64,000 bases of DNA from Sinorhizobium sp. RAC02 (lineage in GTDB: Bacteria > Pseudomonadota > Alphaproteobacteria > Rhizobiales > Rhizobiaceae): NCBI RefSeq assembly GCF_001713395.1, contig NZ_CP016450.1, forward strand, positions 2,924,001 through 2,988,000, written 5' to 3'. The notes beneath the pieces were generated by a model. The model was given only the letters and a program-made list of their open reading frames with translations, ran no database searches and was not told the DNA's origin. Both the position numbers and the translations under genes were made by a program. Shown here piece after piece: positions 10,738 to 64,000 of the stretch. How positions within the stretch are numbered: position 1 is the stretch's first letter; each line of letters begins with the position of its first letter.

Positions 10738-10748
10738 TTTCTTTTTGA

Positions 10749-43025: not shown

Positions 43026-43083
43026 CATTCTGTCAGAAATTAAAAGCCCGGCGGCTCGCCCGGCCCAAATGTAAGGAGTGGCC

Positions 43084-46307: not shown

Positions 46308-46328
46308 ATTTTGAGCAGGGAGCCAAAC

Positions 46329-47780
46329 ATGTCTGTCCTTGGACTGAAGATCAACAACCTCGACCAGGCGGCCTCCGACGGGCGCACCTTCTCCCGCATC
46401 AACCCGATTTCCGGCGAGGTCGCGTCCGAAGTCGCCGCCGCCTCGCTGGACGATGCGCGCCAGGCCGTCAACGCCGCGGCCAAGGCCTTCCCCGCCTGGG
46501 CGGCGACCGGCCCCGGCCAGCGGCGCAGGCTGCTCAACGCCGCTGCCGACAAGCTGCAGGCGAAGACGCCGGATTTCGTCGCCGCCATGGCCGCGGAGAC
46601 GGGCGCCACGGCCGGCTGGGCAATGTTCAATGTCGGCCTTGCCGCCGACATGCTGCGCGAGGCGGCATCGCTGACCACGCAGATCACCGGCGAGATCATC
46701 CCTTCCAACCGCCCCGGTTCGCTGGCCATGGGCCTGCGCCAGCCGGCCGGCGTGGTGCTGTCGATGGCGCCGTGGAATGCGCCGGTCATCCTCGGCGTGC
46801 GCTCGCTCGCCACCCCACTTGCCTGCGGCAACACGGTCGTCATGAAGACCTCGGAAATCTGCCCGCGCACACACCGGCTGATCGTCGATGCGCTGCATGA
46901 CGCGGGCCTGCCGGAGGGCGTGCTCAACGCCGTCTCCAACGCGCCGGAGGATGCCGCCGCCATCGTCGAGACGATGATCGCCCATCCCGCCGTGCGCCGT
47001 GTCAACTTTACCGGCTCCACCCGCGTCGGCCGCATCATCGCCGAGACGGCCGGGCGCTATCTCAAGCCCGCCCTGCTCGAACTCGGCGGCAAGGCGCCCT
47101 TCGTCGTGCTGGACGATGCCGATATCGACGCCGCCGTCGCGGCGGCCGCCTTCGGCGCCTACATGAACCAGGGCCAGATCTGCATGTCGACCGAGCGCAT
47201 CGTCGTCGATGAGACAATCGCCGACCGCTTCGTCGAGGCACTGGCGGAAAAGGCAAAAACCCTCGTCGCCGTTGATCCGCGCGAGGGCAACACGCCGCTC
47301 GGCTCGGTGGTCGATGCGCACGCGGCGCAACGCCTCGAGCAACTCATCCGCGATGCGGTCGGCAAGGGTGCGGTGCTTGCCGCCGGCGGCAGCGTCCGAG
47401 GCACCATCGTCGATGCCACCCTGCTCGATCGCGTGACGCCAGCCATGCGCATCTATGGCGAGGAAAGCTTCGGCCCCGTCGTCAGCGTCATTCGTGTCGG
47501 CTCGATCGACGAGGCGGTTCGCGTCGCCAACGACACGGAATACGGCCTCTCGGCCGCCGTCTTCGGCCGGGATGTCAACCGCGCCATGCAGGTCGCCCGG
47601 CGCATCGAATCCGGCATCTGCCACATCAACGGCCCGACCGTGCATGACGAAGCGCAGATGCCCTTCGGCGGCGTCAAGGAATCCGGCTATGGACGCTTCG
47701 GCGGCAAGGCCGGCATTGCCGAATTCACCGAATTGCGCTGGATTACCGTGCAGGACGGCCCGATCCATTACCCGATCTGA
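46329..47780 (+). CDS. aldehyde dehydrogenase, aromatic-aldehyde type
   Basis: This 483-residue NAD(P)-dependent enzyme oxidises an aldehyde to the acid. The general base Glu251 is in LLELGGKAP, and the nucleophile Cys285 in NQGQICMSTERI. The sequence resembles vanillin/salicylaldehyde dehydrogenases more than fatty or betaine types, but the substrate is not proven. It follows livF-like after 21 bases, so it is in the transporter operon and probably acts on the imported compound. Confidence 0.85.
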   Translation: MSVLGLKINNLDQAASDGRTFSRINPISGEVASEVAAASLDDARQAVNAAAKAFPAWAATGPGQRRRLLNAAADKLQAKTPDFVAAMAAETGATAGWAMFNVGLAADMLREAASLTTQITGEIIPSNRPGSLAMGLRQPAGVVLSMAPWNAPVILGVRSLATPLACGNTVVMKTSEICPRTHRLIVDALHDAGLPEGVLNAVSNAPEDAAAIVETMIAHPAVRRVNFTGSTRVGRIIAETAGRYLKPALLELGGKAPFVVLDDADIDAAVAAAAFGAYMNQGQICMSTERIVVDETIADRFVEALAEKAKTLVAVDPREGNTPLGSVVDAHAAQRLEQLIRDAVGKGAVLAAGGSVRGTIVDATLLDRVTPAMRIYGEESFGPVVSVIRVGSIDEAVRVANDTEYGLSAAVFGRDVNRAMQVARRIESGICHINGPTVHDEAQMPFGGVKESGYGRFGGKAGIAEFTELRWITVQDGPIHYPI

Positions 47781-47783
47781 GCC

Positions 47784-48542
47784 ATGGCGCTTCTTCACAA
47801 AAAGACCTGCATCATCACGGGCGGCGCCGGCAGTATCGGCCTCGCCACCGCCCGGCTCTTCCTCGCCGAGGGCGCCAATGTCGTGCTCGTCGACCAGGAC
47901 CGTGCCGGCCTGGAACGCGCCGCGGCCACCCTGCCGCAGGACCGGGTAGCGCTTGCCGTGGCGGATGTCACGGACGCGGCCTCCACCAGGACCTATGTCG
48001 ACCTTGCCGTTGCCCGGTTCGGCGGCATCGACGTGCTGTTTTCCAATGCCGGCATCTTCGGCATCGTGGCGCCCATCGCCGACTATCCGCTCGAACTCTT
48101 CGACAAGGTGCAGGCCGTGCATGTCCGTGGCGCGTTTCTTGCCGCCCAGTGCGCCGTCCCCCACATGCGAAGCGGCGGCAGCATCGTCATCACGTCCAGC
48201 GTGGCGGCGACGCGCGGCGATGCGGGCGTCTATGCCTATATCACCGCCAAGCACGCCCAGACCGGCCTGATGCGCTGCCTTGCCAAGGAACTCGCGCCGC
48301 GCGGCATCCGCGTCAACACCGTCAATCCCGGCCCCGTTGACAACGGTTTCCAGCTTGCCGTGGAACAGGGCCTGGGAGCCGCGATCGGCGCGGATGGAAC
48401 GGAGTTCTTCAACAGGCTCATCCCCATGGACCGCCATGCCAGCCCCGACGAAGTCGCCCGCGCGGTGCTCTACCTCGCCTCCGATCAGGCGAGTTTCGTC
48501 ACCGGCACGATGCTGATGGTCGACGGCGGCATGAGCATCTAG
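47784..48542 (+). CDS. short-chain dehydrogenase/reductase
   Basis: This 252-residue classical SDR has the cofactor motif TGGAGSIG near residue 13, the NAG motif SNAGIFG, the catalytic Ser in ITSSVAAT, and the Y152-x-x-x-K156 pair in YAYITAKHA. The C-terminal MLMVDGGMSI is standard. It lies three bases after the aldehyde dehydrogenase and shares its operon; the substrate is unknown. Confidence 0.9.
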   Translation: MALLHKKTCIITGGAGSIGLATARLFLAEGANVVLVDQDRAGLERAAATLPQDRVALAVADVTDAASTRTYVDLAVARFGGIDVLFSNAGIFGIVAPIADYPLELFDKVQAVHVRGAFLAAQCAVPHMRSGGSIVITSSVAATRGDAGVYAYITAKHAQTGLMRCLAKELAPRGIRVNTVNPGPVDNGFQLAVEQGLGAAIGADGTEFFNRLIPMDRHASPDEVARAVLYLASDQASFVTGTMLMVDGGMSI

Positions 48543-51393: not shown

Positions 51394-51525
51394 AAAATCA
51401 GGGCCATGCGTACGATGTGGCAGGAAGTCGGTCTTCACGCGCAGCCCCTCTCTTTCGTGTTGCGAACGAGACAACGGGTACCATCGGGCGGCGGCATTTG
51501 CAACCGGGCCGGTTATCACCACGTC

Positions 51526-51559
51526 AAAAGGCCCGGATGCAGGGGACATCCGGGCTTTT
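51526..51559 (-). terminator. terminator of the small secreted protein gene (possibly bidirectional)
   Basis: GCCCGGATG and CATCCGGGC form a nine-base-pair stem around a seven-base loop, flanked by CAAAAG on the left and CTTTTG on the right. On the minus strand the stem is followed by CTTTTG. It lies about 24 bases after the small gene stop. Confidence 0.8.
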
Positions 51560-51582
51560 GGGGAGGTCAGCGACGATACGGC

Positions 51583-51759
51583 TTATTTGCAGACCTTGAT
51601 CCGCTTGATGACGACATTGCCATAGTAGTCGTAGGCCTTGACCTTCTTGATGAAGCAGTACGGCTCGTAGCCGTAGCTGTAATAGCCGGCCTGCGAGGGA
51701 GCGGCGAAGGACACGGCGGCGACGAGGGCAACGGTGGCGGAAACGATGAACTTGCGCAT
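51583..51759 (-). CDS. small secreted hypothetical protein (58 aa)
   Basis: This 58-residue protein starts MRKFIVSATVALVAAVSFA, a clear signal peptide with likely cleavage after PSQA. The mature part is about 34 residues, rich in tyrosine, lysine and valine (GYYSYGYEPYCFIKKVK and IKRIKVCK) with two cysteines. The start has a strong AGGAGAG ribosome site, and a terminator follows, so it is a real single-gene unit. Function unknown; similar small proteins occur in rhizobia. Confidence 0.75.
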   Translation of the reverse strand: MRKFIVSATVALVAAVSFAAPSQAGYYSYGYEPYCFIKKVKAYDYYGNVVIKRIKVCK

Positions 51760-51864
51760 GGGGTCTCTCCTGATCTCTGGTTGGGGATGAGCCTCTCTCA
51801 TCCAGTGATCAGACTTTCCCACATTGCCCCGCAACGCGCTGTTCCGCATGGAACACGCGAAAAA

Positions 51865-52398
51865 CTATCGGAACAGCCGCTCCACATAGTCCCGCCCGAG
51901 CCCGACCTTCTCGTAGTGGTCGCGACAGAGCGCGATGTAGTTGTGCACGTCGAAGAAACCGTCCGGCTCGCCCCTCTCGTCGAGCCAGATCAGCGGCCCC
52001 GTCACCTGGAAGAACACCTTCATCGGCTGCTCATGCTCATAGGCGACGAGCGTGTGGCCCTCGCCCGGCGTCTCGTAGACGAAATCGCCGGCCGTTGCCG
52101 TCCAGTCGTGCTCCAGGTAACCCCACTTGCCGGAGATCGTGTAGGCGAAGACCTCGTGCGGATGGTAGTGGCGGTTCACCAGCCCGGCCTTCTTGGCCAT
52201 CAGGATGTCGCACCACTTGTTTTGCGTCGGCGAAATCCACAGCGGGCGCGACGAGACGGTTTCGGTGAAGGGCACGTAATAGCGCTCGTCTTCGGTCGGC
52301 GCGTTCTGCAGGTAGACTTCCGGCAGGGCATCCGGCTGAAACACCTTGTCGATCGGCTTCAGGTCCTTCCAGAATTCATGGGTCGCCAGTTCGGGCAT
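51865..52398 (-). CDS. cupin protein of the 2,4'-dihydroxyacetophenone dioxygenase family
   Basis: This 177-residue cupin has the metal site residues H77-Y-H79-P-H81-E82 in NRHYHPHEVFAYTISG and H115 in GEGHTLV. Relatives cleave the side-chain C-C bond of 2,4'-dihydroxyacetophenone using iron and oxygen. The start has a perfect AAGGAGG site. It lies 25 bases after a thiamine-diphosphate enzyme gene, forming a two-gene unit behind a PcaQ-type promoter. The true substrate is unknown; an aromatic ketone or aldehyde-like compound fits the context. Confidence 0.8.
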   Translation of the reverse strand: MPELATHEFWKDLKPIDKVFQPDALPEVYLQNAPTEDERYYVPFTETVSSRPLWISPTQNKWCDILMAKKAGLVNRHYHPHEVFAYTISGKWGYLEHDWTATAGDFVYETPGEGHTLVAYEHEQPMKVFFQVTGPLIWLDERGEPDGFFDVHNYIALCRDHYEKVGLGRDYVERLFR

Positions 52399-52423
52399 GG
52401 TTTCCTCCTTGCATGGGTCTGGT

Positions 52424-54151
52424 TCAGGCGCGGACCTGCACGTCGATGAGCGCCAGCGTCCGTTTCGTCTCGATATGCTCGAGCGCCTCCGCAATGGCGC
52501 CGGCCAGCGCCGCACCGTCGGTCACGCGGCGGGCATAGGCCCGGCTTGCCTCCGCGACCTTGACGAAATCCGGCACCGGCGACAGTGCGGTCAGCGGCAT
52601 GCGGTTGGTCTTTGCCGCATAGCCGTCCGGATAGAGGCCCAGCACCGACTGGCGCACCGCCCCCCATTCCGCATTGTTGACGATGAGGACGAGGATCGGC
52701 AGGTCGAGGGCTTCGGCAATCTGGTGGCAGGCGACGGGATTGGCGAACATGTAGGAACCGTCGCCCATGGTGGCGACGACGAGCCGGTCGCGCCGCGCGA
52801 GCTGCATGCCGAGCGCTGCCGGAAAACACCAGCCGAGTCCGCCGGAATGCGGCTCCTGATACCAGGCCTGGTGATGGGCGAGTGTCATCGGCGCCATGGG
52901 GCAGCCGAGTTCCGACAGCACCGTCGCATCCCGCCCGGCCAAAGCCTCCGACAGTGTCAGCGAGACAAAATCCTTCGTCATCGGTGTGCCGTTGCCGCGC
53001 CGTGCCGTTTCAAGCACGCCGGCACGAGCCGCCCGATTGCGCGCCGCGACCTCCCGGGCGTTCCGCTCGGCCTTCGCCCGATGGATGGGCAGCAGCAGAT
53101 CCATCGCCGCCTTCAACGCGAGAAGGCCCGCATCGACATCGCAGGCAAGTGTTACGTCCGAGCGGAAATAGCGCACCGGCTGGCGCTGGTAGAGCGGGTC
53201 CTGCGCGAGCTGGATGACCTTGCAACCGGGTTTGAGCGGATGTGCATCCGGCGACCAGGGCGCGAGCGCGTCGAGCACCAGAACCACATCCGCCTTGTCG
53301 AGCAGCGGCTTGGGATCGGCCTGCGCCGCCATCGGATGGTCCGTCGCGATAGCAAGCTGCACCGCCCAGTACTGGCAGACCGGAATGCCCCACGCCTCGG
53401 CAAGTGCTGCCAGCGCGGCAAACCCTTCGGCCGAGCCCGCACCGCGCTGCGCAAAGATCACCGGGTTTTCCGCTTCCGCCAGCAGCCGCGCCGCTGTCTC
53501 GATGTCCTTCGGTGACGGCACGAAGATTGCCGGCGCCATCGTGGCCGGCGCGTCCAGCCCCTCCGTCGGGCAAGGCTGGCACAGCACCTCGCGCGGCAGG
53601 CTCATATAGACCGGCCCGCGCGGCGTGGAGCAGGCGATGGCATAGGCGCGATCGACCATCTGCGGGATATGCTCGGGTACGCGCAATTCGTCGTCCCACT
53701 TGCAGGCCTCTCGCACCAGCGCCGCCTGGTCGCGCATTTCCTGTCCCCAGCCGATCGGCACGGTGCGCGACCCCTTGCGCCCGCGTTCGGTGACGGGCGT
53801 GCGGCCGGAGAAGAGCAGGACCGGGATATGCTCCATGGCGGCGTTGATCGCGCCGATCGCGCAATTGGCAAGGCCGACATTGGTGTGCGCCATCACCGCC
53901 TGGGCGCGGCCGGTCGCCAGATAATAGCCGTGCGCCATGCCCATGGCCGCCCCCTCGTGCGGCATGACGAGCGCCTGCGGCAGCGCGATACCCTTGGCTT
54001 CGGCCTCGGCAAGCCCTTCGATGATCGGCGGAAAATCCGTGCCGGAATTGGCAAAGATATAGTCGACCCCGACGGCCTTCAGCCGGGCGAGCAGCGCGCC
54101 GCCCGCCGTCATCACCGGCGTTGCGGCGGGATCGCTTTCGTGCCTGCCCAT
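52424..54151 (-). CDS. thiamine-diphosphate-dependent enzyme (acetolactate synthase/benzoylformate decarboxylase-like)
   Basis: This is a 575-residue enzyme with the three-domain thiamine-diphosphate architecture. The cofactor-activating glutamate is E66 in MPHEGAAMGMAHGYY. The cofactor-binding GDG...NN motif is GDGSYMFAN at 463-471 with N492-N493. The central FAD-like or nucleotide domain lies in between. The family splits into synthases and decarboxylases, and the motif set does not decide which. It shares a promoter layout with the pca operon and is coupled with a cupin dioxygenase-like gene, suggesting an aromatic-acid side route. ATG 54151 is chosen because of GGGGAGG upstream; a start 48 bases earlier is possible. 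Confidence 0.85.
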   Translation of the reverse strand: MGRHESDPAATPVMTAGGALLARLKAVGVDYIFANSGTDFPPIIEGLAEAEAKGIALPQALVMPHEGAAMGMAHGYYLATGRAQAVMAHTNVGLANCAIGAINAAMEHIPVLLFSGRTPVTERGRKGSRTVPIGWGQEMRDQAALVREACKWDDELRVPEHIPQMVDRAYAIACSTPRGPVYMSLPREVLCQPCPTEGLDAPATMAPAIFVPSPKDIETAARLLAEAENPVIFAQRGAGSAEGFAALAALAEAWGIPVCQYWAVQLAIATDHPMAAQADPKPLLDKADVVLVLDALAPWSPDAHPLKPGCKVIQLAQDPLYQRQPVRYFRSDVTLACDVDAGLLALKAAMDLLLPIHRAKAERNAREVAARNRAARAGVLETARRGNGTPMTKDFVSLTLSEALAGRDATVLSELGCPMAPMTLAHHQAWYQEPHSGGLGWCFPAALGMQLARRDRLVVATMGDGSYMFANPVACHQIAEALDLPILVLIVNNAEWGAVRQSVLGLYPDGYAAKTNRMPLTALSPVPDFVKVAEASRAYARRVTDGAALAGAIAEALEHIETKRTLALIDVQVRA

Positions 54152-54246
54152 CGGAACCTCCCCTTCGTCCGGACCCGTCGTCGCGTCCGGTCTCCTCAAA
54201 CCGGGACGCGACTGTCAGGCCGCACTCTGACAGGCGAGGCAGCGAT

Positions 54247-54288
54247 GTAAAATGAAATGCCGGCTCCGTTTCATAACGAAAGCCATAT
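54247..54288 (-). promoter_or_regulatory. PcaQ-type promoter of the thiamine enzyme/cupin pair
   Basis: On the minus strand this reads ATATGGCTTTC, then GTTATGAAA, with TCATTTTAC starting exactly 22 bases after the G of GTTA. The same layout and spacing occur before the transporter operon (59109-59150) and before pcaD (63055-63096). The right half-site GTTA and the downstream TCATTTTAC are kept, while the left half-site is degraded to ATA. I infer regulation by PcaQ. Confidence 0.6.
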
Positions 54289-54296
54289 GAATCCCA

Positions 54297-55019
54297 TCAG
54301 TGCAGGCCACCGACGCCGAGCAGGGTTTCGACCGTATGCGCATCGGCGGACAGCGCCTGCGGCGTGCCCGTCCAGGCGATCCGGCCGCGCTCGAGGATGA
54401 TCACCTCGTCGGCGAAATCAAGCGCGCTCTGGATGCGCTGTTCGACGAGCAGGATGGTCATTTCGCCCGAGGCGGCGAGCGTGCCGAAGGCAGCCATCAG
54501 TTCCTCGCAGATGACCGGCGCGAGGCCCTCCAGCGGTTCGTCGAGCAGCAGCACGGAGGGCTGGCCGAGAATGGTGCGCGCCGTCGTCAGCATCTGCTGC
54601 TCGCCGCCGGACAGTTGCGAGCCGAGGTTCTTCCGCCGCTCCTTGAGGCGGGGAAACATCGCATAGGCTTCCTCGATCGCCGAGCGCGGCCGGGCCTTCA
54701 GGCCGACAAAGAGGTTTTCCTCGACGGTCAGCGTCGGGAAGACGTCGCGCGATTGCGGCACGTAGCCCAGCCCTTTCAGCGCACGCGACGAACTGTCGAT
54801 ACCCTCGATCGGCTGGCCGCCGAGGCGGATTTCGCCGCCGTAGCGCTTGGTTTGGCCGGCGAGCGTGGCAAAGAGCGTCGATTTTCCCATGCCGTTGCGA
54901 CCGAGTACCGCGAGCCTTCGGCCGGCGCCGGCGGAGAAGGAAATATCCTCCAGCACCCGCGTCGGGCCGTAGCCGGCGGACAGGCCTGAAATTTCAAGCG
55001 ACGCTGCGGGCATCGGCAT
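54297..55019 (-). CDS. LIV-type ABC transporter ATP-binding protein (LivF-like), aromatic acid uptake
   Basis: This 240-residue ATPase has Walker A GRNGMGKST, signature LSGGEQQMLTTARTIL and Walker B LLLDEPLEGLAP. It is the last gene of the transporter operon next to the pca genes and overlaps LivG-like by 26 bases. The assignment to protocatechuate or related acids is by context. Confidence 0.9.
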   Translation of the reverse strand: MPMPAASLEISGLSAGYGPTRVLEDISFSAGAGRRLAVLGRNGMGKSTLFATLAGQTKRYGGEIRLGGQPIEGIDSSSRALKGLGYVPQSRDVFPTLTVEENLFVGLKARPRSAIEEAYAMFPRLKERRKNLGSQLSGGEQQMLTTARTILGQPSVLLLDEPLEGLAPVICEELMAAFGTLAASGEMTILLVEQRIQSALDFADEVIILERGRIAWTGTPQALSADAHTVETLLGVGGLH

Positions 55020-55758
55020 AGCTCCCGAGATAGGCCTGGCGGACGCGGGCGTCCTTGGTGACGGCGTCCGGCGACCCGTCGAAAATGATCTCGCCCGCCG
55101 CCAGCACGATGACGCGCTTGGCGAAGCGGAAGACGAGATCCATGTCGTGTTCGATCATCAGCACGGCAAGATCGGCCGGCAGGTCGGCGATCGCCTGCTC
55201 GATGCGCGCCGTATCGCTCTGCGGCACGCCGGCGGCGGGCTCGTCGAGCAACAGCACCTTCGGCTTCAGGGCGAGCGCCAGCGCCAGTTCCAGCAGGCGC
55301 TGCTGGCCATAGGCGATTTCGCTGACGCGGTGGCGGGCGAGATGCGCTATGCCGAGTTTGGCCAGCAAGGCATGCGCTTCGTCCATGACGTCCGGCATCG
55401 CGCGATGGCTTGCAAACATGTGTCCCGAACGGCCTTCGCGCTGCAGGATGGCGAGCGCTACATGTTCCTCCGGCGTCATCTCGGAAAACAGCCGCGTCAC
55501 CTGGAAGGAACGCACGAGGCCGCGACGCACGCGCTCGGTCGGGCCGAGCCGCGTCACGTCCTGACCGCCGAGCATAACGCTTCCGGAATTCGGCAGGATG
55601 TTGCCGGTGACGAGGTTGACGAAGGTCGTCTTGCCGGCACCATTCGGGCCGATCAGCGCAACGCGGTCGCCCGGCGCCATCGAGAGCGAAACGTCGTTGG
55701 TGACGGCGAGACCGCCGAACATCTTTTTCAGGTTGCGGACGTCGAAGATCGCACTCAT
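54994..55758 (-). CDS. LIV-type ABC transporter ATP-binding protein (LivG-like)
   Basis: This 254-residue ATPase has Walker A GPNGAGKTT, the LivG-type signature region EIAYGQQRLLELALALAL and Walker B VLLLDEPAAGVPQ. ATG 55758 has a GGAGGAAGGG site and overlaps the LivM-like stop by four bases. Longer open frame upstream is in the LivM-like gene and is not used. Confidence 0.9.
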   Translation of the reverse strand: MSAIFDVRNLKKMFGGLAVTNDVSLSMAPGDRVALIGPNGAGKTTFVNLVTGNILPNSGSVMLGGQDVTRLGPTERVRRGLVRSFQVTRLFSEMTPEEHVALAILQREGRSGHMFASHRAMPDVMDEAHALLAKLGIAHLARHRVSEIAYGQQRLLELALALALKPKVLLLDEPAAGVPQSDTARIEQAIADLPADLAVLMIEHDMDLVFRFAKRVIVLAAGEIIFDGSPDAVTKDARVRQAYLGSYADARSVA

Positions 55759-56765
55759 CGGCCCTTCCTCCCGCGGCGTTCGAGATAGGCGGCGAACGAA
55801 CCGTAAAGGCCTTTCGGCGCGAACAGCACGACGGCGATCAGGAGCGCGCCGACGATGGTGAGCCAGTGGAAGGGATTTGCCGCCGAGACGACATCCTCGA
55901 ACCACATGAAGACGACGGTGCCGATCAGGGCGCCGTACAGCGAGCCGGTGCCGCCGAGCACGAGCATGACGAGCGCCTCCGCCGACAGGGTGAAGGACAG
56001 GCTGTCGAGGCCGACGACCTGGGTCGAGATGGCATTGAGCGCGCCGCCTGCCCCGGCGACGGCGCCGGAGATCGCGTACATCCGGATCACCGTGCCGTGC
56101 ACCGAACCACCCATGGCGCGCACGCGCACCGGATCCTGCCGGATGCCGCGACACAGCATGCCGAAGGGCGAGCGCACGATCTGGCGCAGGATGACGAAGG
56201 CGACGACGAGCAGCACGATGCCGAAGACATAGGCCGTGCGGCCCCAGAGATCGAACTGCCAGAGGCCGAAGACGGCGTCCGGCATGATGCCGGCAAGCCC
56301 ATCGCTGCCACCGGTCCAGCCGGAGGCCTTGTTGGCGGCCTCATGGGCGAGGTGAACGATGGCGATGGACAGCACGAGCTGCGGCAGGCCATGGGCGCGA
56401 AGCACGACGGCGCCGGACAGGAGGCCGGCAAGCGCGCCCGCGAGGATGCCGACGGCGAGCATGGCGATCGGGTCGGTGATGCCGAAATGCGCCGCCGCGA
56501 TGCCCGCGCCATAAGCTCCCGCGCCGAACAGCGCCGCATGGCCAAGGGTCGCGACACCGCAATAGCCAGTGACGAGATCGAGCGAGAGCACCAGCAGCGC
56601 GATCGCGATGATGCGGGTAAGCAGCGCGAGATTGTTCGGGAAGAGGACATAACCCACGACGGCCAGGGCGAGGATGACAAGCACGCCGATGGCGTCGCGC
56701 GTCAGGCGTGCGCGGCGGTCACCCGCGGCGGAGAGCGTGTCGGAATTCGTCAGCAGCGCCATCAC
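55755..56765 (-). CDS. LIV-type ABC transporter permease (LivM-like)
   Basis: This is a 336-residue inner-membrane permease with about ten helices. GYCGVATLGHAALFGAGAYGAGI and SPFGMLCRGIRQDPVRVRAMG are family hallmarks. Overlaps both neighbours by four bases. Confidence 0.9.
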   Translation of the reverse strand: MMALLTNSDTLSAAGDRRARLTRDAIGVLVILALAVVGYVLFPNNLALLTRIIAIALLVLSLDLVTGYCGVATLGHAALFGAGAYGAGIAAAHFGITDPIAMLAVGILAGALAGLLSGAVVLRAHGLPQLVLSIAIVHLAHEAANKASGWTGGSDGLAGIMPDAVFGLWQFDLWGRTAYVFGIVLLVVAFVILRQIVRSPFGMLCRGIRQDPVRVRAMGGSVHGTVIRMYAISGAVAGAGGALNAISTQVVGLDSLSFTLSAEALVMLVLGGTGSLYGALIGTVVFMWFEDVVSAANPFHWLTIVGALLIAVVLFAPKGLYGSFAAYLERRGRKGR

Positions 56766-57625
56766 TTAGCCCTTCCGGCAAGGCCGCGCGGGAAAAGCCA
56801 GACGATGGCGATGACCGCAAGATAGAAGAAGAATTCCCCGAATTCCGGCATGAGATAACGCCCCGTCGTGTCGATGGCGCCGAGCAGCAGGCAGGCGGCA
56901 AGCGCGCCGGGAATGGATCCCGCCCCGCCGACCGAGACGACGACGAGGAAGGTCACCATGTAGCGCAGCGCATAATAGGGCTCGATCGGTAGCAGCTCGG
57001 CGCCGACCACGCCGCCGAAGGCGGCAAGGCCGACGGCGACGGCGAAGCTCACGGCATAGACGACCTCGGTCTTCACGCCGAGCGCTGCCGCCATCGCCGC
57101 ATTGTCGACGCTGGCGCGCAGCTTCACACCGAAGGCGGTGCGCTCGATGAAATACCAGAGGCCGACGGCAACGGCGGCCCCGCAACCGATGACGAAGAGC
57201 CGGTGGGCCGAGACGGTGCGGAAGCCGAGGCTGACGGGTTCGCGCAGCATTTCCGGCGTCGGAATGGTCTTCAGCGTCGGGCCGAAGACGTAATTGGCGA
57301 TGCCGATGATGCAGAAGGTAATGCCGATGGTCATCAGCACCTGCGTCAGCTCCGGCTGGCCGTAGATGCGGCGATAGAGCAGGCGCTCGATGGGAATGGC
57401 GATGAGGATCGTGCCGGCGACCGCGAGCATGACGGCAACGGCATAGGCAAGGCCAAGATCACGTGCCGCATAGGAGGCGATGTAGCCGCCGATCATCGCG
57501 AAGGCGCCATGCGCCAGATTGACCACCCGCATCAGCCCCATCGTCACCGAAAGGCCGATGGAGATGACGAAGAGCACCATGCCATAGGCAAGGGCATCGA
57601 CCCCGATGCTGAAGACCGTTTGCAT
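56762..57625 (-). CDS. LIV-type ABC transporter permease (LivH-like)
   Basis: This 287-residue permease starts MQTVFSIGVDALAYGMVLFVISIGLSVTMGLMRVVNLAHGAF. The ATPase loop is GVKLRASVDNAAMAAALGVKTEVVYA. ATG 57625 follows AGGACAGGAAC. Between it and the binding-protein gene is a 144-base palindromic block (57676-57819). Confidence 0.9.
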   Translation of the reverse strand: MQTVFSIGVDALAYGMVLFVISIGLSVTMGLMRVVNLAHGAFAMIGGYIASYAARDLGLAYAVAVMLAVAGTILIAIPIERLLYRRIYGQPELTQVLMTIGITFCIIGIANYVFGPTLKTIPTPEMLREPVSLGFRTVSAHRLFVIGCGAAVAVGLWYFIERTAFGVKLRASVDNAAMAAALGVKTEVVYAVSFAVAVGLAAFGGVVGAELLPIEPYYALRYMVTFLVVVSVGGAGSIPGALAACLLLGAIDTTGRYLMPEFGEFFFYLAVIAIVWLFPRGLAGRAK

Positions 57626-57675
57626 GTTCCTGTCCTGCTTGTCGCCGGGATGTCGGCGGTCACTCGTCGGAGGCC

Positions 57676-57819
57676 GGTGGATCCTCGGGTCAAGCCCGAG
57701 GATGACGAAAGAAGCGAGGGCAACGTACCACAGCGACGACGACGCTTGCCGCGCCGCCTGATGGACGGGAAGCGCTTCCCTGCCCTCCGTCATCCTCGGG
57801 CTTGACCCGAGGATCCACC
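57676..57819. repeat. pair of 32-base perfect inverted repeats in transporter operon gap
   Basis: The arms 57676-57707 and 57788-57819 are perfect reverse complements. Each arm contains the smaller palindrome CCTCGGGTCAAGCCCGAGG. This is a widespread alphaproteobacterial intergenic repeat. Together they can fold into a large stem between the binding-protein and permease genes, where it probably protects the upstream mRNA and lowers permease expression. Confidence 0.85.
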
Positions 57820-57847
57820 CGCCAGGCACGTCGCCGGGGTAGTCCGG

Positions 57848-59020
57848 CTATTTCGCAGCCGCCAGACCCGGATCGCCCTGCTTCTCGAAGGTCTGGATTT
57901 CCTTGTTGTAGTAGGTCCCGTCCTCTGCCTTCGCCACCTCGCGCAGATAGATGTTCTGCGTGATATGGCGGCTTTCGGGATCGATGGTCACCGGCCCGCG
58001 CGGGCTTTCCCAGGACAGGCCCTTTACAGCTTCGACGGCCTTGGCCGCATCCTGCTCGCCGCCCGTCGCCTCGATCATCTTGTAGATGACATGCATGCCG
58101 TCATAGGCGCCGACCGAGGGAAACGACAGTTCCGCGGGGTTGCCGATCGCCTTGGCGGCGGCCTCCACGAATTTCTTGTTTTCCGCCGAGTCATGCGAGA
58201 CGGCATAGTGGAAGGTGGTCTGGAGGCCGAGTGCGGCCTCGCCGAGCGCCGGCAGGTCGGATTCCTGCGTCAGGTCGCCGGGCGCGAAGAACTTGACGCC
58301 GGCATCCTTCAGACCGTTCTCGTTGAAGGCCTTCACGAAACCAAGCGTCGTCGGGCCGGACGGCAGGAAGGCGAAGATGCCTTCGGCACCCGAATCCTTG
58401 ATGCGCTGCATGATCGGCGAGAAGTCATTGGTCTGGAGCGGGATGCGGATCGCCTCGACGACGGCACCGCCGGCTTTCTCGAAGCCGGCCTTGAAGGCGG
58501 CTTCCGCGTCGACACCCGGGCCGTAGTCGCTGACGACGGAAATCACCTTCTTCGTGCCGCCGTCGAAGGCGACCTTGGCGATCGGCGTCGAGGTCTGCCA
58601 GGTGGTAAACGAGGTGCGCACCACATAGGGGCTCTTCGTGACGATGGCCGAGGTCGCGGCGTTCATCACCACCATCGGCACATTCGCCTGCTCGAGCAGC
58701 GGCGTGGCGGCCATGGCATCCGGCGTAAAGTAGAAGCCGGCTAAGTACTGCACGCCTTCCTTGACCACCAGCTCCTGCGACAGGGCCTTCGACTGCGCCG
58801 GATCGGCGGTCGGGATGTCGCGGTAGATGATCTCGATCGTGTCGTCGCCAACGGTCGCGCCGTTCAGCGCCATATAGGCATCGATGCCCGCCTTGAAATT
58901 CTTGCCCTGCAGCGCGAAGGGACCGGAGAACGGCCCGACCACCCCGACCTTGATCGTATCGGCATTGGCGACACCGCCCAGAAGTGCAGCCGTCAGCGCG
59001 GCGATTGCAATCGTCTTCAT
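57848..59020 (-). CDS. LIV-type ABC transporter substrate-binding protein, probable protocatechuate/aromatic acid binding
   Basis: This 390-residue periplasmic protein has a signal peptide (MKTIAIAALTAALLGGVANA) and the LivK-like fold (IKVGVVGPFSGPFALQGKNFKAGIDAYMALNG). A similar five-gene LIV operon in Sinorhizobium meliloti takes up protocatechuate under PcaQ control, and this one sits between pcaB and further aromatic genes. The ligand is thus inferred. Ribosome site GGGAGGAAAAC. Confidence 0.85.
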   Translation of the reverse strand: MKTIAIAALTAALLGGVANADTIKVGVVGPFSGPFALQGKNFKAGIDAYMALNGATVGDDTIEIIYRDIPTADPAQSKALSQELVVKEGVQYLAGFYFTPDAMAATPLLEQANVPMVVMNAATSAIVTKSPYVVRTSFTTWQTSTPIAKVAFDGGTKKVISVVSDYGPGVDAEAAFKAGFEKAGGAVVEAIRIPLQTNDFSPIMQRIKDSGAEGIFAFLPSGPTTLGFVKAFNENGLKDAGVKFFAPGDLTQESDLPALGEAALGLQTTFHYAVSHDSAENKKFVEAAAKAIGNPAELSFPSVGAYDGMHVIYKMIEATGGEQDAAKAVEAVKGLSWESPRGPVTIDPESRHITQNIYLREVAKAEDGTYYNKEIQTFEKQGDPGLAAAK

Positions 59021-59108
59021 GTTTTCCTCCCAGAAAAGCCGGCCTCCCGCCAACACGCGGTCCAGTCCCAGAATGGCTTTTTGTCAGATTGCCAGATGAA
59101 ACGGTGAT

Positions 59109-59157
59109 GTAAAATGAAAAAATCGGCCATTTTCATAACTCATAAATTATGAAAATG
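59109..59157 (-). promoter_or_regulatory. PcaQ-type promoter and long palindrome of transporter operon
   Basis: On the minus strand this shows ATAATTTATGA, then GTTATGAAA, with TCATTTTAC starting exactly 22 bases after the G of GTTA, as before pcaD. The bases 59128-59138 and 59147-59157 form a perfect 11-base inverted repeat with an eight-base spacer. This matches the ATAACC-N4-GGTTAA-like PcaQ recognition pattern with a few changes. Confidence 0.65.
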
Positions 59158-59159
59158 CG

Positions 59160-60215
59160 TTAGGCCGCGCCAAACCGGCGAATGGAAGAAAGAAGCGTGG
59201 CGGCAAGGCGAAGCGATGCGCCGCAAGCCACCACCATCTGCGGCAGGATCAGCCATTCCAGCGTCCAGGCTGCACCGGAGCGTTCCTGCTCGTGCACCAT
59301 CGCCTGGGCCAGCCCGCCGAGTTGGGCGGCATTGAAGCGGGCAAGCGTGACAAGCCCTTCGGCGGCGACCGGGTTCTGCTTGTGCGGCATGGCAGACGAA
59401 CCACCGCCGCCGGCAAGCGCGATCTCGTCACCACGATCCGCCATCAGCGCAATGTCCTGGCCGATCTTGCCGAGACTGCCGGTGATGGCCGCCAGCAATG
59501 CGGCAAGCGCGCCGATCCGGTCGCGCTGGCTGTGCCACTGGGGAGCATCGGCAAGGCCAAGCTCGCCCGCCAGCGCGGCGCGCACCGCCGGCGCCTTTTC
59601 GCCGAGTTTCTCCAGCGTGCCGGCGGCACCGCCGAACTGGATGGCGAGGCCCGTCTGGGCGAAGGCCGTCAAATGGTCGGCATGGCGCTGCAAGGGCGCG
59701 CACCAGGAGGTGATGCGGTCAGCCACGGTGATCGGGATCGCCGCCTGCATGCGCGTGCGTCCCATCAGCGTGCGTTCGCCGAACGTGACTGCAAGTCCGT
59801 CGAGGATATCGGCGAGCGCAGCCAGCCGCGTTTCGAAAATCGGCACCACCCGCGCAAGGCGCAGCATCAGGCCGCTGTCGATGACATCCTGGCTGGTCGC
59901 GCCGAAATGCATATGCCTGCCATGCGGCTCGCCGACGGCGACGCGTAGCTGGCGCACGAGATCCGGCACCACGACGCCGTCGCGCGCCGTGGCGTCCCGC
60001 AGGCTCGCCACATCCGGCGAGAAACGATGCGCTCTATCCGCAATCACATCCGCGGCTTCGGTCGGGATAAGCCCTTCGGCCGCCTCGGCCTTGGCCAGTG
60101 CCACCTCGAAGGCGAGCATGGCTTCCAGCTCCGCCGCGATGGAGAAGAATGCCGCCACCTCCTCGTCGCCGAGAAGACCCGAGAGGTAGGGATGGTCGAA
60201 GGATGAAACGGTCAT
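59160..60215 (-). CDS. pcaB: 3-carboxy-cis,cis-muconate cycloisomerase
   Basis: This 351-residue fumarase/aspartase-superfamily enzyme converts 3-carboxy-cis,cis-muconate to 4-carboxymuconolactone. The superfamily signature GSSAMPHKQNP is at 272-282, and the HMHFGATSQDVIDSG region at about 101-115. The protein is about 100 residues shorter than the Pseudomonas enzyme, which is usual in rhizobia. It is the last gene of pcaDCHGB, separated from pcaG by 212 bases with an inverted-repeat pair. ATG 60215 has AGAGGGACCC upstream. Confidence 0.93.
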   Translation of the reverse strand: MTVSSFDHPYLSGLLGDEEVAAFFSIAAELEAMLAFEVALAKAEAAEGLIPTEAADVIADRAHRFSPDVASLRDATARDGVVVPDLVRQLRVAVGEPHGRHMHFGATSQDVIDSGLMLRLARVVPIFETRLAALADILDGLAVTFGERTLMGRTRMQAAIPITVADRITSWCAPLQRHADHLTAFAQTGLAIQFGGAAGTLEKLGEKAPAVRAALAGELGLADAPQWHSQRDRIGALAALLAAITGSLGKIGQDIALMADRGDEIALAGGGGSSAMPHKQNPVAAEGLVTLARFNAAQLGGLAQAMVHEQERSGAAWTLEWLILPQMVVACGASLRLAATLLSSIRRFGAA

Positions 60216-60239
60216 GGGTCCCTCTGGCAAGATGGGCGG

Positions 60240-60382
60240 GCGTGGATCGTCGGGTCGAGCCCGAGGATGACGGAGGGGAGGATAGTTTGCCGGATTCCTG
60301 GGCGGCGCGGCCTGCCGTATCGCTCGATGTACCCAGGCTTCCCTTCTTTCGTCATCCTCGGGCTCGACCCGACGATCCACGC
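60240..60382. repeat. pair of 33-base perfect inverted repeats between pcaG and pcaB
   Basis: The arms 60240-60272 and 60350-60382 are perfect reverse complements, each with the core CGTCGGGTCGAGCCCGAGG. They belong to the same repeat family as 57676-57819 but differ by a few matching changes in both arms, which suggests that the arms are kept complementary. They may tune the pcaB level relative to pcaHG. Confidence 0.85.
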
Positions 60383-60427
60383 CCCGGCGGAAAACACATT
60401 ATAGGCGATTGCCGCGCAAACGCTGCC

Positions 60428-61042
60428 TCAAATATCGAAGAACACCGTTTCCTTCTCGCCCTGCAGATGGATGTCGAAGCGGTACTCGTCCCCATCCGCC
60501 ACGGCGATCAAGGTCGGCACGCGCACGCGGTGCTCGATGCGGGCCAGCACTGGGTCTTCGGCGTTGGCCGCCTCCTCGTCGCCAAAATACAGGCGCGTGT
60601 TGAGGCCGAGATTGATGCCGCGCGCGACGATCCAGACCGAAATGTGCGGCGCCATCGGACGACCGTCCTTGAACGGCACGCGGCCGGGCTTGATCGTCTC
60701 GAAACGGTATTCCCCCGTCACGCCGTCGGTCGCTGAGCGCCCCCAGCCGGAAAAATTCGGATCGGCGCTGCCGCGCAGTTCCGACGGGCTGTTGTAGAGG
60801 CCCGCGGCATCCGCCTGCCAGATTTCGAGCAGTGCATCTTTCAGTGGCGTGCCGGTGCCGTCGAGCACGCGACCGGTAATGGTGATGCGCCGGCCGAGCG
60901 TCTTGTCGTTCACCATGGTGGCGCCGAGATCGCTCTCATAGACGCCGCCGATGCCCGAGAAATTGGGCGTCAGGCCGATATGGACGTAAGGCCCCGCCGT
61001 CTGCGAGGCGCTTTCCTTGAGATACCCGAGCGGCTGGACCAT
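60428..61042 (-). CDS. pcaG: protocatechuate 3,4-dioxygenase alpha subunit
   Basis: This 204-residue subunit pairs with PcaH in the ring-cleavage enzyme that opens protocatechuate between its hydroxyls. The TVNDKTLGRRITITGRVLDGTGTPLKDALLEIWQAD region matches the family. Alpha subunits lack the full iron ligand set. Its ATG overlaps the pcaH stop by one base. Confidence 0.93.
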   Translation of the reverse strand: MVQPLGYLKESASQTAGPYVHIGLTPNFSGIGGVYESDLGATMVNDKTLGRRITITGRVLDGTGTPLKDALLEIWQADAAGLYNSPSELRGSADPNFSGWGRSATDGVTGEYRFETIKPGRVPFKDGRPMAPHISVWIVARGINLGLNTRLYFGDEEAANAEDPVLARIEHRVRVPTLIAVADGDEYRFDIHLQGEKETVFFDI

Positions 61043-61791
61043 CAGTTGCCCTCCATGCGGTTTTCAAAGAGCGTCGAGCGGCGACCGCGCAGCACGATGT
61101 CGAACTTGTAAGCACGCGCATCCATCGGGATCGTGTTGCCCCAGTCGAGGGCCGCGACCAGCTGCTCGATCGCCGCCTTGTCCGGGATCGTCTGCACGAT
61201 GGGACATTTCCAGATCATCGGGTCGCCTTCGAAATACATCTGCGTGATCAGCCGCTGGGCAAATCCATGGCCGAAGACGGAGAAGTGGATATGCGCCGGG
61301 CGCCAGTCGTTGACGCCGTTCGGCCAGGGATAGGGGCCGGGCTTGATGGTGCGGAAAGCATAGTAGCCGTCCGCATCGGTGATGGTGCGGCCGCAGCCAC
61401 CGAAATTCGGGTCGAGTGGTGCGAGATAACTTTCTCGTCTATGACGGTAGCGTCCGCCGGCATTGGCCTGCCAGAATTCCAGGAGCGCGCCGGCCACCGG
61501 CCGCGCCCGCTCGTCGAGCACCCGTCCATGCACGATGATGCGCTCGCCGATAGCGCTTTCGCCGGCTTTCGCGAAATTGTGGATCAGGTCGTTGTCCAGT
61601 TCGCCGAGGATCGAATGGCCGAAGACCGGCCCGGTGATTTCCGACACCGTGCCGTCGAGCGACAGCAGTGCCTTCTGCGGCGAGCGCAGCACGGAGGTCT
61701 TGTAGCCGGGGGTGAGACCGGGCGGATGCCACAGCCGATCCCGCGAGAAGAAGGCGCCCGTTTCGGGCTTGCGATTGGAAAGGTCCGTCAT
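61042..61791 (-). CDS. pcaH: protocatechuate 3,4-dioxygenase beta subunit
   Basis: This 249-residue subunit carries the non-heme iron. The ligands Tyr115 (GGRYRH), Tyr154 (PGPYPWPNG), His167 and His169 (AHIHFSVFG) are all present. It cleaves protocatechuate to 3-carboxy-cis,cis-muconate. The start at 61791 follows GAGGCAGAG. Seven bases separate it from pcaC. Confidence 0.95.
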
Positions 61792-61798
61792 CTCTGCC

Positions 61799-62203
61799 TC
61801 AAGCCGCCTTTTCCGCGTCCAACTGTTCGAAGACCTGCTTGGCGACCTTGATCGCCCGGTTGGCGGCCGGTACGCCGGCATAGATCGCCACATGCAGCAG
61901 CGCCTCGGCGATGTCGTCGCGGCTCGCCCCGGTGTTGACCGTCGCGCGCACATGCATCGCCACCTCCTCGTCATGGCCGAGTGCGGCGAGCAGCGCGATC
62001 GTCACCATGGAGCGCTCGCGCTTCGTCCAGCCCGGCCGCGACCAGACCGTGCCCCAGGCGCCTTCCGTGATCAGCTCCTGAAACGGCTGGTCGAAGTCCG
62101 TCGCGGCGGAGGAGGCGCGGTCGACATGGTTGTCGCCGAGCACCGCGCGACGGGTCACCATGCCCTGGCGATAGCGATCGGAAAAGGTATGGGCATCAGC
62201 CAT
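61799..62203 (-). CDS. pcaC: 4-carboxymuconolactone decarboxylase
   Basis: This 134-residue enzyme removes CO2 from 4-carboxymuconolactone. [40 protein letters not shown] is the typical core, and [33 protein letters not shown] the second half. It overlaps pcaD by eight bases. Confidence 0.95.
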
Positions 62204-63008
62204 GGGGCTCGTCTCCGGCAGGTAGGGTGGCGATGAAGGCGCGGATCATCTCGGTGAGGATTTCCGGCTGCTCGACGCAGGGAATATGCCCGGCATCCTT
62301 GATGACCTCGTAGCGCGCACCGGCAATGAGCTTTGCCATCGACAGCACGACATCCGGCGGCGTCGAGCCGTCCTGGTCGCCGACGACGCACAGCGTCGGC
62401 ACGGAAATGTTCTTGGTGGACTGGGTGAGGTCGGCATCGCGCAGGGCGGCACAGGTCGCGGCGTAGCCGACCGCGGACTGGCGGGTCAGCATGGTGCGGT
62501 AGCCATGATAGGCGGCATTTTCCGGGCGGCGGAAGGCCGGCGTGAACCAGCGCTCCATGACAGAATCAGCGAGGCTTTCGATGCCCTTCGTCTCGACGCT
62601 TTCGATGCGGGCGTTCCACATCTCGGCCGTGCCGATCTTGTGCGCCGTGTCGCAGAGGATGAGCGCCTTGACGAGATCCGGCCGCTTGGCCGCAAGCCCC
62701 TGCGCGATCATGCCGCCGACCGAGAGGCCACAGATGATCGCGTTCCTGACGTCGAGCCGGTCGAGCAGGGCGGCGAGATCGAGCACATGATCGTCGATCG
62801 AATAGGGCACCTGGCCGAGATCGGACAGGCCATGGCCGCGCTTGTCATAGGTGACGATCGGGAAATCACCGGCAAGCCGGACCACGACGTCGCGCCAGAT
62901 GCGGAAATCGGTGCCGAGCGAATTGGAAAAGACGATCACCGGCCGCCCGGCCGGGCCGCCGATCAGCTGGTGATGCAGGATGACGTCGTTGACGGTTGCG
63001 AATTGCAC
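62196..63008 (-). CDS. pcaD: 3-oxoadipate enol-lactonase
   Basis: This 270-residue alpha/beta hydrolase opens 3-oxoadipate enol-lactone to 3-oxoadipate. The nucleophile Ser96 is in CGLSVGGM, with the C-terminal catalytic His in DAGHIPCVEQPE. It is the first gene of pcaDCHGB and divergent from pcaQ. The later genes for 3-oxoadipate breakdown (pcaIJF) are not in the window. Confidence 0.94.
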   Translation of the reverse strand: MQFATVNDVILHHQLIGGPAGRPVIVFSNSLGTDFRIWRDVVVRLAGDFPIVTYDKRGHGLSDLGQVPYSIDDHVLDLAALLDRLDVRNAIICGLSVGGMIAQGLAAKRPDLVKALILCDTAHKIGTAEMWNARIESVETKGIESLADSVMERWFTPAFRRPENAAYHGYRTMLTRQSAVGYAATCAALRDADLTQSTKNISVPTLCVVGDQDGSTPPDVVLSMAKLIAGARYEVIKDAGHIPCVEQPEILTEMIRAFIATLPAGDEPHG

Positions 63009-63054
63009 GGCTTTCTCCTCCCGTCTTCCCAGATTGATCGCTTGATCTGGTTAG

Positions 63055-63096
63055 GTAAAATGATATTTCATGCCGTTTCGTTAACTTCAGAGTTAT
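63055..63096 (-). promoter_or_regulatory. PcaQ binding site and pcaD promoter
   Basis: On the minus strand, ATAACTCTGAAGTTAA differs at two positions from the PcaQ motif ATAACC-N4-GGTTAA known from rhizobia. TCATTTTAC begins exactly 22 bases after the G of GTTA. The site lies in the 95-base gap between pcaD and pcaQ, close to the pcaQ start, so PcaQ can repress itself and activate pcaD. Confidence 0.8.
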
Positions 63097-63103
63097 GAAA
63101 GCC

Positions 63104-64000
63104 ATGGTCGACAGCCGTATCAAGTTCCGTCATCTGCAAACCTTTGTCGAGGTGGCGCGCCAGAAGAGCGTGATGAAGGCGGCGGACCTTCTGCATGTCA
63201 GCCAGCCTGCCGTGACCAAGACGATCCGCGAACTGGAGGAGGTTCTGGGCGTCGCGGTCTTCGAGCGCGACGGCCGCGGCATAAAAATCACCCGCTACGG
63301 CGAGGTTTTCCTCAAACATGCAGGTGCTGCGCTGACGGCGCTGCGGCAAGGCTTCGATTCCGTCTCGCAGGCGCTGTCCGGCGATGCGACACCGATCCGC
63401 ATCGGGGCGCTACCGACGGTCTCGACGCGCATCATGCCGAAAGCAATGCGGCTATTCCTCGCCGAGGGAACAGGCGCGCGGATCAAGATCGTCACCGGCG
63501 AAAATGCCGTGCTGCTCGAGCAGCTGCGCGTCGGCGATCTGGACCTCGTCGTCGGCCGCTTGACGGCACCGGAAAAAATGACGGGGTTTTCCTTCGAGCA
63601 TCTCTATTCCGAACAGGTGGTTTTTTGCGTGCGCGCCGGCCACCCGTTGCTGTCCAGTGGCAACGCGATCTTCGCCGGACTGGATGCCTATCCGGTGCTG
63701 ATGCCGACCCGCGCCTCGATCATCCGCCCCTTCGTCGAGAGCTTCCTGATCACCAACGGCATTGCCGGGCTGCCGAACCAGATCGAGACCGTCTCCGACG
63801 CCTTCGGCCGCGCCTTCGTGCGCGAAAGCGATGCGATCTGGATCATCTCCGAAGGGGTCGTCGCGGCCGACATCGCGGAGGGCAAGCTGGCCGCCTTGCC
63901 GATCGATACCAGCGGCACGAAAGGCCCGGTCGGCCTCACCATGCGCACCGACGCCGTTCCCTCCATGCCGCTCGCCATCCTCATGCAGACGATCCGCGAA
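63104..64000 (+). CDS. pcaQ: LysR-type transcriptional activator of pca genes, partial at right edge
   Basis: The frame runs to the window edge with 299 codons and no stop, so the end of the gene lies outside. The N-terminal helix-turn-helix is IKFRHLQTFVEVARQKSVMKAADLLHVSQPAVTKTIRELEE. The effector domain follows from about residue 90. PcaQ activates pcaDCHGB with carboxymuconate-type inducers. The start is ATG 63104 (MVDSRIKF); an in-frame ATG at 63095 lies inside the operator and is less likely. Confidence 0.93.
   Translation, partial: MVDSRIKFRHLQTFVEVARQKSVMKAADLLHVSQPAVTKTIRELEEVLGVAVFERDGRGIKITRYGEVFLKHAGAALTALRQGFDSVSQALSGDATPIRIGALPTVSTRIMPKAMRLFLAEGTGARIKIVTGENAVLLEQLRVGDLDLVVGRLTAPEKMTGFSFEHLYSEQVVFCVRAGHPLLSSGNAIFAGLDAYPVLMPTRASIIRPFVESFLITNGIAGLPNQIETVSDAFGRAFVRESDAIWIISEGVVAADIAEGKLAALPIDTSGTKGPVGLTMRTDAVPSMPLAILMQTIRE

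Follow-up and report, generated by a model that had tools for sequence, protein, structure and literature searches.

This report concerns the promoter of a two-gene operon in a stretch of 64,000 nucleotides from Sinorhizobium sp. RAC02 (contig NZ_CP016450.1, positions 2,924,001 to 2,988,000), hereafter the window. In this soil bacterium the genes for a thiamine-diphosphate (TPP) enzyme and a cupin, which probably convert phenolic ketones and aldehyde precursors of plant origin to 4-hydroxybenzoate, lie beside the protocatechuate (pca) genes and probably share with them the LysR-type regulator PcaQ, which would thus govern the upper and lower parts of the pathway jointly. The original prediction had singled out three promoters of one exact layout in this region, and the features on which the argument turns are, in window positions:

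51865..52398, minus strand: cupin, predicted 2,4'-dihydroxyacetophenone dioxygenase (DAD).
52424..54151, minus strand: TPP enzyme, benzoylformate-decarboxylase-like (NCBIfam PRK08327, 667 bits, cut-off 456).
54247..54288, minus strand: putative PcaQ-type element of the TPP-DAD operon (dyad ATATGGCTTTCGTTAT at 54288-54273, TCATTTTAC at 54255-54247).
54297..59020, minus strand: predicted pcaMNVWX-type transporter operon (binding protein at 57848-59020, Pfam Peripla_BP_6; permeases and two ATPases named by eye).
59109..59150, minus strand: putative PcaQ-type element of the transporter operon, with the exact layout.
59160..63008, minus strand: pcaDCHGB operon (pcaB, pcaG, pcaH, pcaC, pcaD; pcaD and pcaB above NCBIfam cut-offs, pcaC with a Pfam CMD domain; the names of pcaG and pcaH were given by eye and from their position).
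63055..63096, minus strand: putative PcaQ-type element of pcaDCHGB, lying between pcaQ and pcaD, with the exact layout.
63095..64000, plus strand, running past the window end: pcaQ, LysR-type regulator (TIGR02424, 435 bits, cut-off 304).

The layout GTTA-N18-TCATTTTAC is found exactly at 54247-54277, 59109-59139 and 63055-63085, each time on the minus strand, and these remain the only places in the window when up to two mismatches are allowed (100 shuffles gave a mean of 0.13 and a largest count of 2). Read from the dyad start, the sites are ATAACTCTGAAGTTAA before pcaD, ATAATTTATGAGTTAT before the transporter operon and ATATGGCTTTCGTTAT before the TPP gene, with TCATTTTAC following 17 bases after each. 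In the whole genome (three contigs, 6,626,583 bases) the exact layout again occurs three times, all inside the window. The proposal that three promoters share one exact layout was borne out. A regulon beyond the three operons in this genome was rejected as far as sites with an unaltered TCATTTTAC are concerned, there being no fourth exact layout. The coordinates 54247-54288 and the near-consensus PcaQ dyad at pcaD had also been given correctly; of the elements described as shared, GTTA and the spacing to TCATTTTAC stood, and the '(A/C)NGAAA' portion proved weak, the bases after GTTA being only moderately conserved in the training set of the promoter model described below. With up to two mismatches the genome yields 15 places, and a reversed-pattern control 24. 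Information therefore lies in the exact layout alone, and the places with one or two mismatches elsewhere in the genome were discarded as fewer than the control gave. Over the 12 kb from pcaQ through pobA no other site scored at least 8 with the promoter model; sites with an altered TCATTTTAC elsewhere could escape such a scan. Two terminator-like stems near TPP-DAD were likewise set aside, being no more than shuffles yield (mean 1.9).

Across 199 Rhizobiaceae genomes, that of the window included, the exact layout occurs 72 times in 55 genomes, and the reversed-pattern control 10 times. In 52 cases it lies within 150 bp of a pcaQ gene end and in 10 more within 10 kb, the three in the window being counted among these 62 (the distances were taken to 72 of 92 pcaQ matches); the remaining ten comprise five farther away on the same contig and five on other contigs or in genomes without a listed pcaQ. 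The layouts distant from pcaQ thus equal the control count of 10, and a chance origin of the third site was rejected: with a background of about 10 per 199 genomes, a chance match in one 200-bp promoter is very unlikely. When the best 30 of the 92 pcaQ loci (window included) are aligned on the dyad alone, TCATTTTAC appears at offset 33 in 26 and at offset 34 in three; the one locus that lacks it is also one in which no pcaD or pcaC was detected next to pcaQ. The aligned pcaQ loci also agree with ATAACY-N4-RGTTAT, which we take to be the full PcaQ consensus. The S. meliloti pcaD promoter has the identical exact layout, with TCATTTTAC at the same 33-34-base spacing, and the tie between layout and PcaQ that had been proposed is upheld by these counts. 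On the evidence of these alignments, GTTA-N18-TCATTTTAC is the ordinary PcaQ-type promoter of Rhizobiaceae, and the idea that it represents a new kind of element was dropped. As a signature, a dyad half with a fixed TCATTTTAC finds Rhizobiaceae PcaQ-type promoters with few chance matches (72 versus 10).

A published site of this kind is that of S. meliloti pcaM, given as ATAACCGGGGGATTAT with critical bases ATA-N10-TAT; the site subjected to mutation is reported as ATAaccgggggatTAT, and its centre is placed 65.5 bp 'upstream of the structural gene' (PMC5002191). We find this published site in pSymB of S. meliloti 1021, with TCATTTT (followed by TG, not AC) at offset 33. The gene downstream was taken as pcaM because the published site lies upstream of it, and since its start codon is 134.5 bp from the dyad centre, we read 65.5 bp as the distance to the transcription start. 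With the dyad centred near -65 in this published numbering, TCATTTTAC would fall at about -40 to -32 and may act as the -35 region, and the three sites in the window would be three copies of one promoter design. The binding protein of the window transporter is 89.8% identical over 96% of its length to the pSymB gene at 1580563-1581681; from this homology, together with the upstream site, the transporter is assigned to the pcaMNVWX (protocatechuate) type, as the original prediction had it. The window therefore resembles the S. meliloti PcaQ regulon in regulator family (TIGR02424), in both operons (pcaDCHGB and pcaMNVWX), in the dyad and in the spacing; unlike that regulon, it adds a third operon, TPP-DAD, which is absent from the targets named in the accessible portions of PMC4495286 and PMC5002191. 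A PcaQ target in a peripheral pathway is not without precedent, as control of pobA and a transporter by PcaQ has been suggested in R. leguminosarum in the available text of PMC4495286.

The quality of the third site was assessed with a promoter model of 48 columns, trained on 23 pcaD promoters from other genera, each of which has offset 33. The pcaD, transporter and TPP-DAD sites score 73.8, 46.1 and 2.9, which are ranks 1, 2 and 3 of 127,906 window positions, with the fourth position at -20.0; a model of the downstream part only also ranks them 1, 2 and 3. The TPP-DAD site carries the critical bases ATA-N10-TAT (within ATATGGCTTTCGTTAT, 54288-54273) and has TCATTTTAC at offset 33.

Applied to 116 regions upstream of TPP genes, the same model gave ten rows scoring 8.6-25.3, the other 106 scoring 0.4 or less. 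The ten rows represent seven genomes (three genomes stood in both collections): five Shinella, R. alarense and a genome referred to here as G103. When 2,320 windows were drawn at random from these loci, six reached 8.6 and the next scored 5.5; each of the six overlaps a site of this kind, five of them at TPP and one at the Devosia TRAP operon described below. Within the genus of the window, here taken as Shinella, 5 of 21 genomes carry the TPP gene, and the same five carry a DAD of 95-100% identity and the third site; four other genus genomes have only a 43% DAD relative. In R. alarense the TPP site, ATAACGAAAACCGTGT, has its left arm intact; the gene upstream of TPP there is not the pca transporter (an amidase-like open reading frame, by eye), and pcaQ is on another contig. 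As this promoter is kept with a different upstream neighbour, it appears to belong to the TPP gene. G103 has the order TPP-pcaQ with pobA divergent, and its TPP gene is preceded, in the gap towards pcaQ, by an ATAAC-N5-GTTAT dyad and TTATTTTAC at the same 22-base distance; the pobA promoter of G103 has the exact layout, with a poor left dyad arm (TTGCATTTATGGTTAA). In a tree of 89 TPP sequences, Shinella and R. alarense form one clade (support 0.999), which fits a single gain of the promoter, and G103 is far away. Deep nodes of this tree are weakly supported, so that the number of independent pca linkages (four places) is approximate.

Comparison with more distant relatives drew on 80 TPP loci with flanks of up to 10 kb. 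These contained an aldehyde dehydrogenase (ALDH) in 36, DAD in 24, a short-chain dehydrogenase (SDR) of the type found in the window in 21, pobA in 14 and an alpha-hydroxy-acid oxidase in four; looser clustering raised ALDH to 40 and SDR to 30. Eleven of the 14 pobA-bearing loci are from Thalassospira, with pobA 8-9 kb away. DAD lies within 15 kb of pcaQ in four genomes, two Shinella and two Devosia. When the 24 DAD-bearing loci are scanned over their full extent, the only further exact layouts are those in the two Devosia loci (L092 at 3257 and L124 at 3159, both minus strand), before a TRAP-transporter operon situated between pcaQ and the TPP-DAD cluster, and this operon is likely, from its promoter sequence, to be a further PcaQ-type target.

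Several results count against PcaQ control of TPP-DAD or against the pathway proposed for it. The selection of offset 33 in training partly dictates the TCATTTTAC columns of the model, and a model of the dyad only ranks the three sites 1, 2 and 23 of the 127,906 positions. The third dyad departs from the full consensus, with left arm ATATGG and right arm CGTTAT, and its left arm (ATATGG or ATACGG, compared with ATAACY) is degenerate; in R. alarense it is the right arm that is poor. A sigma-70 consensus scan of 51500-54700 detected no promoter. The element was expected before orthologues in related genomes, and this held in part: it is present in the five Shinella and, altered, in R. alarense, yet it does not go with the pair in general. 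Of the 24 DAD-bearing loci, all from the genome-contig collection, just two, both Shinella, have it before TPP, and 22 lack it there. In several of these 22 loci TPP stands inside an operon, and the promoter of that operon is then not to be sought directly before TPP. Of the 24 DAD genomes, 7 lack pcaQ at E 1e-60, and 13 of the 17 that have it carry DAD and pcaQ on different contigs. A search at E 1e-15 found no DAD in R. alarense or G103, both of which have TPP, so the partnership with DAD is not obligate, and 41 of the 80 TPP loci have no DAD, SDR, ALDH or oxidase at the thresholds used. For the enzyme itself, the match to the benzoylformate decarboxylase model PRK07092 is 154 bits, against a cut-off of 493.

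The degenerate left arm also bears on the origin of the site. The element sits immediately past the end of pcaX (stop codon at 54297), and the stretch from pcaX to TPP showed no terminator-like structure, as would suit a decayed and no longer working copy of a pca promoter that was carried along when the pair joined the transporter operon, TPP-DAD being transcribed by read-through from pcaMNVWX. We consider such an origin unlikely. In the five Shinella genomes the dyad is invariant at 14 of 16 columns and the core at 17 of 18, better than the whole upstream stretch (108 of 185), and R. alarense retains the promoter without the neighbouring transporter. Moreover, read-through would still put TPP-DAD under PcaQ.

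A second alternative is that the promoter answers to another LysR-type protein, or to the AraC- or IclR-type regulators of the conserved cluster, instead of PcaQ. Regulators of these kinds do accompany the genes elsewhere: 22 of the 24 DAD-bearing loci contain an AraC-like match, Devosia L092 has an IclR regulator of the PcaR/PcaU/PobR kind divergent to TPP (158 bits, cut-off 285), and a similar gene was seen by eye in locus L055. In the window, by contrast, TPP is preceded by the end of the transporter gene and not by a divergent regulator gene, and the promoter has the PcaQ spacing and a complete TCATTTTAC. We hold this to be the least probable of the explanations considered. PcaQ control of TPP-DAD together with pcaDCHGB and pcaMNVWX is, in our judgement, likely. 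Its basis is computational, comprising the layout, its spacing, its conservation and gene identities assigned through homology.

The original prediction had called the enzyme pair uncharacterised, which does not hold for the cupin. Its product matches the solved DAD of Alcaligenes sp. 4HAP (PDB 4p9g) at 136 of 173 residues, and the iron-ligand histidines all align, being H77, H79 and H115 in the window protein and 76, 78 and 114 in 4p9g (PMC4219425, in the text available). Several plasmid relatives are also annotated as 2,4'-dihydroxyacetophenone dioxygenase, and on this homology the window cupin is very probably that enzyme. According to the same portion of the source, DAD converts 2,4'-dihydroxyacetophenone to 4-hydroxybenzoate and formate, and in Alcaligenes it serves the breakdown of 4-hydroxyacetophenone (PMC4219425), whereas in the window its gene is joined to one for a TPP enzyme, with an ALDH gene nearby. 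In Novosphingobium MBES04 a DAD-like gene is strongly induced by lignin fragments (PMC10866074); the words thiamine, TPP and cupin are absent from the text of that source as available.

The TPP enzyme is less readily named. It has three Pfam TPP domains, its closest relative with a name is from Shinella kummerowiae (93%), and NCBIfam describes PRK08327 only as 'thiamine pyrophosphate-requiring protein'. Among solved structures, two benzoylformate decarboxylases match it best (98 and 93 bits), and an N-terminal-domain glutamate and histidine, which in benzoylformate decarboxylase we take to have catalytic roles, are aligned in 7orx and 6qsi. In the mandelate pathway, mandelate is processed by mandelate dehydrogenase, benzoylformate decarboxylase and benzaldehyde dehydrogenase in turn. 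The loci studied here resemble it in joining a TPP enzyme of benzoylformate-decarboxylase type to an ALDH, in some relatives with an alpha-hydroxy-acid oxidase as well: in Neorhizobium petrolearium and Paroceanicella profunda (annotated plasmid records) the TPP gene is beside an oxidase and an ALDH gene. They differ from it in that, at the thresholds used, none of the 24 DAD-bearing loci yielded such an oxidase, and in that the TPP protein stays far below the benzoylformate decarboxylase cut-off. The main rival to an arylglyoxylate decarboxylase at this step is a carboligase or ketol lyase, of benzaldehyde-lyase or acetolactate-synthase type, acting on the DAD substrate, which would be compatible with PcaQ control. 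Solved relatives do include acetolactate synthase (89 bits), benzaldehyde lyase (85) and formolase (79), and TPP and DAD share one locus in 24 of 80 cases; the benzoylformate decarboxylases nevertheless score best among solved relatives, and partners of the oxidase and ALDH kind fit a mandelate-type order. From these homologies we give the arylglyoxylate decarboxylase an even chance, and regard a ketol lyase as possible, with distinctly less conviction.

The remaining genes of interest lie on the far side of TPP-DAD in the window:

46311..47780, plus strand: aromatic aldehyde dehydrogenase (ALDH), salicylaldehyde/vanillin dehydrogenase type (622 bits to 6qhn, salicylaldehyde dehydrogenase; 615 to 9ihb, vanillin dehydrogenase; no NCBIfam cut-off reached among the matches listed).
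47784..48542, plus strand: short-chain dehydrogenase (SDR), butanediol/glucose-dehydrogenase-like (NCBIfam matches below cut-off, 210.5 against 215 and 208 against 270).
41602-46307, plus strand: second LIV-type transporter, by eye, whose binding protein has relatives in DAD-type loci.
40568-41473, minus strand: AraC-family regulator, divergent to the second LIV transporter (HpaA-like, below cut-off).

The usual DAD-type cluster consists of AraC regulator, LIV transporter, ALDH, SDR, TPP and DAD, as in Ensifer sp. PDNC004. The window holds the full conserved cluster in split form, its transporter-ALDH-SDR arm (41602-48542, plus strand) being apart from DAD-TPP. The pobA gene lies at G000:C1:2989395-2990564, 1.4 kb past the window end (676 bits, cut-off 539), and beyond it are open reading frames that resemble, by eye, an AraC regulator, an IclR regulator and pcaIJF.

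These genes permit a scheme in which two branches would meet at 4-hydroxybenzoate. First, DAD would cleave 2,4'-dihydroxyacetophenone to 4-hydroxybenzoate and formate. Second, the TPP enzyme may form 4-hydroxybenzaldehyde by decarboxylating (or splitting) a 4-hydroxyphenyl alpha-keto compound, and the ALDH encoded close by could oxidize this aldehyde to 4-hydroxybenzoate; the SDR may also have a role. PobA would then convert 4-hydroxybenzoate to protocatechuate. PcaQ, whose inducers are presumably carboxymuconate and gamma-carboxymuconolactone, would sense these intermediates of the protocatechuate pathway, bind the three promoters and activate pcaDCHGB, pcaMNVWX and TPP-DAD together. The pair had been proposed as a new branch of aromatic catabolism; the DAD product enters the known pobA-pca route. 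The locus is like that route in Agrobacterium and Rhizobium in having pobA near a pcaQ-type gene and protocatechuate as the product (PMC12285266 and PMC4495286, in the parts available), and unlike it in adding an upper funnel to 4-hydroxybenzoate.

The most likely reading of the sequence evidence is that the TPP-DAD pair funnels 4-hydroxyphenyl-C2 compounds to protocatechuate under PcaQ, as a lineage-specific recruitment in which the TPP gene of the Shinella/R. alarense lineage would have acquired a PcaQ-type promoter. Most likely, too, the peripheral funnel to 4-hydroxybenzoate runs under other regulators in many Alphaproteobacteria, and Shinella and R. alarense have put it under PcaQ. TPP-DAD is thus probably, as judged from its promoter, a new target of a known regulator, limited to one lineage and one similar distant case (G103). 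A broader and more tentative possibility, which we hold at somewhat less than even confidence, is that PRK08327-type proteins are dedicated 4-hydroxyphenyl-alpha-keto-acid decarboxylases or ketol lyases that form, with DAD and ALDH, an undescribed alphaproteobacterial funnel, drawn into the PcaQ regulon at least twice (Shinella/R. alarense and G103); a compound formed in the last part of the pathway would then induce its first part. If the main reading is true, the PRK08327 TPP family gains a class of substrates, namely those 4-hydroxyphenyl ketones, keto acids and aldehydes that lead to 4-hydroxybenzoate, and a well-studied LysR regulon gains one operon. Among the titles and abstract openings listed from an open-access collection, none concerned a TPP-DAD operon or its control by PcaQ.

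Other arrangements of these genes were seen in individual genomes. On the Agrobacterium plasmid pAtCFBP7129a, DAD is accompanied at positions 7079-13589 (L231) by a 2,3-butanediol dehydrogenase as well as a LIV transporter, and no TPP match was found in the record at E 1e-120; this module suggests aryl glycols as a source of the DAD substrate by oxidation. In Labrenzia sp. R4_2 (L085, 7745-11683) pobA and pca genes are divergent from pcaQ, and the start of the TPP open reading frame overlaps the end of pcaQ, which suggests that TPP and pcaQ are co-transcribed. In Rhizobium populisoli (L101, 9392-12400) a UbiX-type flavin prenyltransferase gene (257 bits, cut-off 188) follows the TPP gene, a MarR-like gene precedes it, and the pca operon is about 4 kb away.

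In the window, the two arms of the cluster are separated at 48606-51216 by an Xre/RES toxin-antitoxin-like pair and, at 49690-51216, by a gene judged by eye to be ABC-F-like; the Xre antitoxin match is 29.5 bits, below its cut-off of 90, and the RES toxin was named by eye. The pcaQ matches of four of the surveyed genomes (G260, G186, G256 and G037) each have one in-frame stop inside. Exact layouts away from the pcaQ-pcaD gap occur in L163 at 1501 (plus strand), L141 at 1501 (plus strand), L158 at 1531 (minus strand) and G159 at C2:484222. The one in L158 precedes a pcaB-like gene. The one in L163, whose contig lacks the pcaQ match, shows a complete dyad (ATAACTCATTAGTTAT) and is a candidate further PcaQ target.

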